From NCBI RefSeq assembly GCF_000242635.2, contig NC_017770.1:4538669-4602668 (forward strand): a stretch of DNA of 64,000 nt, written 5' to 3'. This DNA is from Solitalea canadensis DSM 3403 (GTDB lineage: Bacteria > Bacteroidota > Bacteroidia > Sphingobacteriales > Sphingobacteriaceae). Shown here one piece after another: positions 5,325-61,139 of this stretch. The translations under genes were made by a program, and so were the position numbers. Positions within the stretch are counted from its first letter, which is position 1. Each line of letters starts with the position of its first letter. The notes beneath the pieces are model-generated. The model made no database searches. It was not told where the DNA came from and was given only the letters and a program-made list of their open reading frames with translations.

Positions 5325-5358
5325 AAAAATGGCGGTTGAGTAATCAACCGCCATTTTT
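5325..5358. terminator. Bidirectional hairpin terminator
   Basis: AAAAATGGCGGTTGA (5325-5339) pairs perfectly with the complementary arm at 5344-5358 and is flanked by A and T runs. It lies between the convergent metallopeptidase and apaG genes. Confidence 0.9.
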
Positions 5359-46361: not shown

Positions 46362-46392
46362 AAAAAAGGAGGGCTATTAGCCCTCCTTTTTT
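46362..46392 (+). terminator. Hairpin terminator downstream of prc
   Basis: AAAAAAGGAGGGCT pairs with AGCCCTCCTTTTTT around a short loop, about 18 bases after the stop codon, with T's following. Confidence 0.92.
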
Positions 46393-59864: not shown

Positions 59865-60018
59865 AGTGATGTTTAAATTAAAGAATAACTGCAAATGAAT
59901 ATAAAAATGATGGTTAAACGTATTGGTGCTCACCCGCCGCCCGTGTGGGATGCGCGAGGCCTACCTGTCGGATTGTTTGCTAAGCGAACGAAACGAGGAT
60001 TTATTTTTTGAGCTTGCT

Positions 60019-60048
60019 CCGAACCCTTGATCTGCGTCAGGGGTTTGG
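60019..60048. repeat. Twelve-base-pair stem-loop
   Basis: CCGAACCCTTGA (60019-60030) pairs with TCAGGGGTTTGG (60037-60048) with two G-U pairs and a 6-base loop. It may be a REP-type element or a terminator remnant. Confidence 0.6.
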
Positions 60049-60111: not shown

Positions 60112-60139
60112 GTAGAGACAAGGCATGCCTTGTCTCTAC
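60112..60139. repeat. Perfect 28-bp palindrome (probable REP of the adjacent RAYT)
   Basis: GTAGAGACAAGGCA followed directly by its complement, ending 57 bases before the RAYT start codon. A near-identical copy (29 bases) lies inside the RAYT coding sequence at 60482-60510. Confidence 0.85.
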
Positions 60140-60196
60140 CCGGATACGAACCACGTTAGCAACAATTATAAAAACAGCGGAAAGCCGCAAACACCT

Positions 60197-60727
60197 ATGG
60201 ATCTATACAAAAATAAATACCGCATTGCGTCTACGCGGTTGCAAAATTGGGATTATCGTCGTAACGCCGCATACTTCATTACCATCTGTACCCAAAACAG
60301 AATTCATTATTTCGGTGAAATAATTTCACAACAAATGCAATTAACAGACATTGGCCAATTGGCAGAAAAATTTTGGTTGGAAATACCGAATCATTTTCCG
60401 TTTGTTGAATTGGGTAATTTCGTAATAATGCCCAATCATATGCACGGCATTTTGATTATTAATAATTCGATTGACGTGGCGGTAGAGACAAGGCATTGCC
60501 TTGTCTCTACGGGGTGCGATATGTCACGAAAAAATTCAATATCATCCATTGTTGGATCCTACAAATCGGTTGTCACAAAAAATGCAAGAATACAATTTGA
60601 TACACGATTTGCATGGCAATCACGTTTCCATGACCATATTATCCGCAATTCTGATTCATTCGGTCGTATTCAACAATACATTGCAAATAATCCGGAAAAT
60701 TGGAATAAGGATAAATTTCATCAGTAA
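60197..60727 (+). CDS. REP-associated tyrosine transposase (RAYT, Y1-Tnp fold)
   Basis: A 176-residue relative of IS200/IS605 TnpA. The HUH-type metal pair is in IMPNHMHGIL, the start of the fold is AAYFITICTQN, and the catalytic tyrosine is in IQQYIANNPENW. RAYTs are usually single-copy genes that act on palindromic REP sequences scattered through the genome. The palindrome sits both just upstream (60112-60139) and inside the gene (60482-60510), where it is read in frame as VETRHCLVST. The start at 60197 (MDLYKNKYR) is normal; an in-frame start at 60125 begins inside the palindrome and is rejected. The protein appears intact. Confidence 0.9.
   Translation: MDLYKNKYRIASTRLQNWDYRRNAAYFITICTQNRIHYFGEIISQQMQLTDIGQLAEKFWLEIPNHFPFVELGNFVIMPNHMHGILIINNSIDVAVETRHCLVSTGCDMSRKNSISSIVGSYKSVVTKNARIQFDTRFAWQSRFHDHIIRNSDSFGRIQQYIANNPENWNKDKFHQ
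60482..60510. repeat. REP palindrome within the RAYT coding sequence
   Basis: GTAGAGACAAGGCA, one T, then the complementary arm: the upstream 28-bp palindrome with one extra base. It is translated in frame between the HUH segment and the catalytic tyrosine region, with no disruption of the frame. Confidence 0.9.
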
Positions 60728-60746
60728 GATATCAGAATGGCAATAT

Positions 60747-61139
60747 TTACAAATACTGCTTTAACCATTCCTTGGCATCTTCCTCATTCGAAAACGTTCT
60801 CATGGGAATAGATGGCTTCTGAAATTTAAAAATGAAATTAATGACGAAACTGCCTAAAGAAGAATTTGAAACGATAGCCATTGCTTTGTAAATACTGCTA
60901 AGTTGCTGCGCTACAAAATCACGGGTTTGTTTATCTGGTTGAGGAGAACGGGAGAGGTAAACCAAAATACAAACAGGAGTATTATTGGAGATTTTCTTGA
61001 TCAGATTAATATTGGATTTAACATTATCTAATGTTCTTAAGATTTTATTGGAAACGGAACATAAAATACCATTTTCGTCAAACCAATAAGTTCCCAATTC
61101 ACCTTCAAATCTCTCGACATTTTCTGGAATCTGCTTCAT
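60747..61139 (-). CDS. Hypothetical protein, possible STAS/SpoIIAA-like fold
   Basis: A 130-residue soluble protein. I recognise no exact family. Alternating strands and helices (ERFEGELGTYWFDENGILCSV, TPVCILVYLSRS, DFVAQQLSSIYKAMAIVSN, SFVINFIFKFQ) and the final RTFSNEEDAKEWLKQYL resemble STAS/SpoIIAA-like proteins of Bacteroidota, which often lie alone like this. The end KEWL-type motif is the best hint. It sits between the RAYT and the efflux operon. Confidence 0.55.
   Translation of the reverse strand: MKQIPENVERFEGELGTYWFDENGILCSVSNKILRTLDNVKSNINLIKKISNNTPVCILVYLSRSPQPDKQTRDFVAQQLSSIYKAMAIVSNSSLGSFVINFIFKFQKPSIPMRTFSNEEDAKEWLKQYL

Follow-up and report, generated by a model that had tools for sequence, protein, structure and literature searches.

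The RAYT (TnpA_REP) gene located in a 64,000-nucleotide stretch of Solitalea canadensis DSM 3403 DNA, hereafter the window, carries within its own reading frame a palindrome of which another copy lies upstream of the gene. In the reading that we favour, with a probability of roughly 60%, this is the cognate palindrome of the encoded enzyme: it would have been self-inserted near its own gene by a single-strand HUH enzyme, tolerated in a disordered loop of the protein and renewed at the DNA level. The phenomenon has already been published for TnpA_REP subclass 2.4, and the window locus is a further instance of it; since the oddity is in print, the survey of relatives reported below may matter more than the locus itself.

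The RAYT gene and its two palindromes

The features of the locus are as follows:
60112..60139, no strand: upstream double-foot palindrome; its arms are shared with the inner copy and it ends 57 nt 5' of the probable gene start
60197..60727, + strand: RAYT / TnpA_REP gene, 176 aa plus stop (ORF; start taken from homologues)
60461..60526, + strand: variable protein loop, residues 89-110 (from the alignment; modelled without helix or strand)
60482..60510, no strand: in-gene double-foot palindrome with a 1-nt centre, encoding residues 96-105, VETRHCLVST

The upstream element, GTAGAGACAAGGCA|TGCCTTGTCTCTAC, is a perfect 28-bp palindrome with 14-bp arms and no gap. The 29-bp copy, 370 bp beyond it, has the same 14-bp arms plus one centre base. 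Both are of the double-foot type (5' GT[AG]G and 3' C[TC]AC), one flanking the gene and one inside it. The preliminary description had pointed to these two palindromes with common arms and to the inner one being read in frame as VETRHCLVST between the HUH motif and the tyrosine; both observations are confirmed from the sequence. Perfect arms of at least 12 bp separated by 0-4 bases are found in the window only in these two palindromes and in three terminator-like ones, and nowhere in ten mononucleotide-shuffled windows. The three others (750-781, 5325-5358 and 46362-46392) form perfect hairpins with A/T tails and resemble bidirectional terminators. A known RNA family was considered and rejected: the three Rfam matches are each under their gathering score and are taken as chance, including whalefall-1, which sits on the palindrome itself.

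As called, the ORF runs from 60125 to 60727 (+), and its ATG falls in the centre of the upstream palindrome. Because homologues begin where the window protein has MDLYKNKYRI, the gene probably starts at 60197 rather than 60125. The protein harbors the HUH motif MPNHMHG (residues 78-84), WQ (140-141) and YIANNP, whose Tyr161 is presumed to be the catalytic tyrosine; VETRHCLVST begins 18 codons past the start of MPNHMHG, ahead of the other two motifs. Residues H81, H83, W140, Q141 and Y161 are invariant in 67 aligned sequences. Profile searches, for which the query was the 200-aa ORF including the upstream extension, return NF047646, the NCBIfam REP-associated tyrosine transposase, with 52.6 bits (E 4e-14) for a cut-off of 80, and Pfam Y1_Tnp (PF01797) with 22.6 bits, just missing the cut-off of 23. 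Our guess is that the NF047646 model leans to other subclasses. The AlphaFold2 model (mean pLDDT 86.7) is similar to IS608 TnpA, ISDra2 TnpA and E. coli TnpA_REP (PDB 4ER8), and together with the invariant residues it describes an IS200-like fold with an HUH motif and one catalytic tyrosine. In this otherwise confident model, residues 97-106 have a pLDDT below 50 and nearly coincide with the palindrome-encoded residues. They belong to the 89-110 loop, which separates the HUH strand from the next helix and is also the palindrome site in homologues.

Three copies of the palindrome are present in the 5.2-Mb genome, two at the gene and one elsewhere; the latter (1190355-1190382) is imperfect, intergenic and just after a stop codon. 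A BLAST search of the 4.7-kb locus against its own genome (E <=0.001) detects no copies beyond these three. An abundant REP family is thus rejected for this genome, where three copies in 5.2 Mb are not the many expected of a REP sequence. The preliminary description had presumed a REP, and had held that finding no other copy in the genome would speak against it; the count stops just short of that, and calling the palindrome a REP family here is generous because there is one other, imperfect copy. That third copy (L204, G000:C1:1190342-1190395) lies one base past the stop codon; its flanks are inverted, and a 54-bp stretch matches its own reverse complement at 89%. The empty site of this copy has no match in three same-genus genomes.

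The RAYT gene itself has no match in the three same-genus genomes, though the neighbouring genes are conserved there, and its relatives have a patchy distribution, being present in 14 of 60 and in 103 of 295 genomes, which fits a probable horizontal acquisition. Plasmid carriage was considered and rejected, 4 of 72,556 plasmid records holding a relative of the protein, the best of them 53% identical. A PHROGs search with the protein yields one weak family of unknown function. Around the gene, intergenic DNA at 59884-60020 is conserved in all three same-genus genomes, the adjoining 130-aa gene (60747-61139, minus strand) has no nucleotide match at the site in any of them, and positions 60746-60844 have an 80% match on a different contig in one of them.

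Palindromes in the loop of RAYT homologues

Two sets of RAYT genes were surveyed for loop palindromes, i.e., palindromes located in the HUH-WQ loop with arms scoring at least 10 and at most one mismatch. Set A comprises 80 loci gathered by protein similarity, 73 of which pass a motif filter, and set B comprises 42 genes, window gene included. Loop palindromes occur in 56 of the 73 RAYT ORFs of set A and in 33 of the 42 of set B. Among the neighbouring ORFs of the same loci, a palindrome at any position is found in 11 of 263 and 1 of 116, respectively (Fisher p 4e-37 and 1e-24), one control ORF, L094, being itself a second ORF with RAYT motifs. Expressed per kb, RAYT ORFs contain 1.46 and 1.63 palindromes against 0.054 and 0.013 in their neighbours, rates ~27 and ~120 times lower, and no palindrome appears when each RAYT ORF is shuffled once at constant composition. 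Of 113 surveyed RAYTs, 87 carry an inner palindrome, a prevalence that is possibly too high as query and profile contain carriers; the 26 RAYTs without one at this threshold are an upper limit, the "none" of L130 concealing a decayed palindrome. Dereplication at 80, 70 and 60% core identity leaves carriers at 76/101, 59/83 and 32/46. The motif filter missed, and thus left uncounted, 7 of the 80 loci of set A, among which L103 does have a loop palindrome, and four of set B (L010, L015, L032 and L145). Carriers span named records of Bacteroidota, cyanobacteria (Nostoc, Westiellopsis), Chloroflexi and Desulfobacterales.

The distance of the inner palindrome from the HUH motif ranges from 12 to 72 residues, and a second tolerated place is found 39-52 residues before HUH (L023, L028, L070, L097, L109 and L114). 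Five loops (L057, L058, L113, L041 and L050) contain two or three in-frame palindromes or tandem half-palindromes; judging by these multi-copy loops, it is as if the RAYT loop kept accumulating palindromes. The pairs of genes with and without palindrome (L086/L113, L130/L048, L130/L058 and L066/L133) give no insertion borders of an in-gene empty site because the loops of these aligned close relatives are too variable. Taken together, the survey suggests that the RAYT gene is a favoured home of the palindrome.

A REP-like flanking palindrome is present within 800 bp at 49 of the 113 RAYTs, a number that is undercounted, some loci stopping at contig ends and the core-comparison filter having kept REP-like motifs only. 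The 8-base core arm is the same in the inner and flanking palindromes at 26 of 40 loci, for a chance expectation of 4.8 (maximum 13 in 5000 shuffles). Much of this match is shared ancestry, because the flank of the nearest relative already equals the inner core exactly at 18 of these 40 loci; the gene's own flank is the better match at 19 loci, the worse at 7 and tied at 14 (p 0.03). A comparison of entire palindromes without gaps (mean identity 0.79) was set aside, as it combined forms of 28 and 29 bp. The 28 kinds of core in the 87 carriers change 37 times on a RAYT protein tree built without the loop, a weak tree with 18 of 110 inner branches well supported, against an average of 61.3 and no fewer than 55 in 300 shuffles, which argues that palindrome core and enzyme lineage go together.

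Origin and upkeep of the in-frame palindrome

Of the palindromes whose foot reads GTA, 52 have it in codon phase 0 and 15 in phase 1. None has it in the third phase, which would read TAG, a zero that is partly ascertainment since open frames were required. On the tree, the reading phase changes at least 11 times, where shuffling gives 16.5 on average and no fewer than 11. Several of the insertions must therefore be independent; not all of them are, and phase also clusters by lineage. The preliminary description had proposed a self-insertion tolerated in frame. In-frame carriage of the gene's own REP is indeed supported by the palindromes in homologue loops, by an inner-flank core match above chance and by the two frames, and the proposal holds to that extent; it is not specific to this gene.

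Among the 87 inner palindromes, 46 are perfectly paired through the foot, and 10 of these 46 extend at least 5 bases into the local flank, where ~0.04 would be expected. Among 133 copies mapped in other genomes, 19 extend by at least 4 bases, against a mean of 1.0 and a maximum of 5 in 200 rounds of flank swapping; 18 of the 19 are dispersed copies and one is in a RAYT gene, i.e., long inverted flanks are found in 18/102 dispersed versus 1/20 in-RAYT copies. Locus-specific inverted flanks of 7-12 bp past the GTAG/CTAC feet are seen in loops L039, L133, L081, L107, L051 and L126, as well as in dispersed copies L279, L284 and L209. In the close relatives L039 and L133, the right flank repeats the left one in inverted orientation, and the two have changed jointly. 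Such inverted local flanks hint at hairpin-templated copying; insertion into pre-existing hairpins could possibly explain them too. A bolder proposal, that the RAYT coding sequence is the principal home of the palindrome, which would be renewed there by fold-back copying that duplicates the local flank in inverted form, making the family self-labelled, is tentative and in our view rather doubtful.

Changes between close relatives bear on the first alternative. Across 18 independent close pairs, symmetric changes number 25 and asymmetric ones 16, i.e., the arms remain complementary as the cores diverge. Each of three processes would account for this: strand switching templated by the hairpin, re-insertion, and selection on the hairpin. 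Selection is what would be expected if the in-gene palindrome were a cis-acting site, the protein binding the hairpin of its own mRNA or single-stranded DNA and thereby limiting its synthesis or activity. RNA folding gives the in-gene copy (60482-60510) a very stable hairpin, at -21.1 kcal/mol (z -8.1), and the leader copy (60112-60139) one of -18.6 kcal/mol. Inner palindromes are also more frequent than REP-like flanking ones, and 47 of the 87 carriers are devoid of a REP-like flank within 800 bp at the threshold used, which selection for the inner copy could explain. However, up to 26 of the 113 relatives do without a loop palindrome, and the variable offset from HUH, combined with two frames, does not describe a fixed operator position; nor do the upstream palindromes, whose ends are anywhere from 10 to 408 nt ahead of the assigned start. 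Symmetric change may also come from hairpin-templated repair. We consider a selected site unlikely.

The distribution of copies across genomes addresses a second alternative, a neutral accident, in which palindromes are everywhere in these genomes and the RAYT loop is merely tolerant, its own gene being nothing special. The pattern GTAGAGAC-(8-16)-GTCTCTAC was scanned in 295 genomes of the class and is present in 41, the reversed control being found in 2. It occurs in 32 of the 103 RAYT-positive genomes and in 9 of the 192 RAYT-negative ones (p 1e-9), an association that includes the copies inside RAYT genes themselves. Outside the window genome, 133 of the 155 copies were mapped, in 40 other genomes (the 22 left out are from G043, G062, G081, G141 and G282). 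Twenty of them are within open RAYT frames: 16 occupy the HUH-WQ loop, 2 precede HUH and 2 belong to frames lacking an HUH motif. A further 11 lie within 1 kb of such a frame, 18 inside other ORFs of at least 150 aa and 84 elsewhere. Copies L221, L222, L224, L255, L258 and L260 are among those in other ORFs.

The disorder predicted for the loop, the 102 dispersed copies and the published intragenic REPs of many unrelated genes, as reported in the accessible portion of PMC3733652, all fit a neutral scatter. Yet copies are few (1-18 per genome), and 20 of the 38 located in ORFs, counting RAYT frames and other ORFs of at least 150 aa and leaving out of the tally the 11 found up to 1 kb from a RAYT, are in RAYT frames. 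The copies do disperse, and among the ORF-located ones the RAYT gene is greatly over-represented, enriched and not exclusive. Neutral scatter does not explain this enrichment, the paucity of palindromes in neighbouring ORFs also stands against it, and cores track the RAYT lineage; we regard it as improbable. A third alternative, a conserved peptide segment that happens to be palindromic as DNA, draws on the V-E-T of the 67-homologue consensus and is rejected as highly improbable, because one and the same DNA yields VETLHATSL in some genes and, translated in the other frame, GRDVACNVST-like peptides elsewhere, and because the cores vary yet remain palindromic. The preliminary description had named such a segment, conserved in all orthologues, as what would refute its own proposal; the survey finds instead that those 26 relatives show no loop palindrome at the threshold used and that it is the DNA that recurs.

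According to the favoured reading of self-insertion and renewal, the HUH/Tyr enzyme would recognise the GTAG-footed hairpin on single-stranded DNA and would insert or copy it, preferably close to its own gene. Copies falling in the flexible loop that follows the HUH strand would be tolerated when the frame avoids TAG, and they would be kept perfect by re-insertion and/or hairpin-templated (strand-switch) repair, not for the sake of the peptide. These enzymatic steps are proposed by analogy with the studied TnpA_REP systems, as described in the accessible part of PMC8266576. If the in-gene palindrome is the substrate of the enzyme, many genes combine in a single unit an enzyme and the hairpin that it recognises, and the RAYT-REP specificity becomes testable by comparing protein and core sequences. 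If, moreover, the family is self-labelled, each gene spells the hairpin of its enzyme, and enzyme-substrate specificity would be readable from sequence. The inverted local flanks provide a clue to how palindromes arise and stay perfect.

Comparison with known systems

Among the closest known systems is TnpA_REP subclass 2.4 of Quentin et al. 2018, which corresponds to Bertels group 4 in Table 1 of PMC6006769. The accessible text of that paper describes this subclass as abundant in Bacteroidetes and Cyanobacteria, with double-foot REPs and with in-frame REPs that lie between the HuH and Y positions of tnpA_REP, in a loop that the authors judge to be peripheral. The resemblance to this portrayal includes the NHxH, WQ and YIxNNP motifs, a variable HuH-Y insertion, a patchy distribution, double-foot GTAG/CTAC palindromes and a frame-preserving REP inside tnpA. 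For the motifs, given as NH[IFV]H / WQ / YIxNNP, the window protein has NHMH, with M in place of I, F or V, and YIANNP; its insertion is the 89-110 loop, and double-foot palindromes both flank the gene and lie inside it. By motifs, REP type and insertion, the window gene is placed as a subclass-2.4-type TnpA_REP. It differs by the three palindrome copies to which its genome is limited. The inner-flank core match, the core-lineage match, the two-frame reading and the inverted local flanks are not found in the accessible text of PMC6006769, and among the matches listed in searches of the open-licence literature nothing further appeared on in-gene REPs of RAYTs.

The E. coli REPtron is another of these systems. 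Its TnpA_REP (PDB 4ER8) shares the HUH-Tyr fold (Foldseek rank 7, TM 0.54 by query; phmmer E 0.016), and the system has in common a GTAG foot and a REP adjoining the gene. Whereas E. coli REPs possess a bulged stem, according to the accessible part of PMC8266576, the window palindrome is perfectly paired, carries a foot at either end and is also present in the gene. Finally, in-frame read-through in proteins is described for intragenic GTAG/CGTC REPs and for Rickettsia palindromic elements, whose hosts, in the accessible portion of PMC3733652, are assorted, unrelated genes, many of them in DNA synthesis and repair. In contrast, the host gene here is that of the presumed mobilising enzyme itself.
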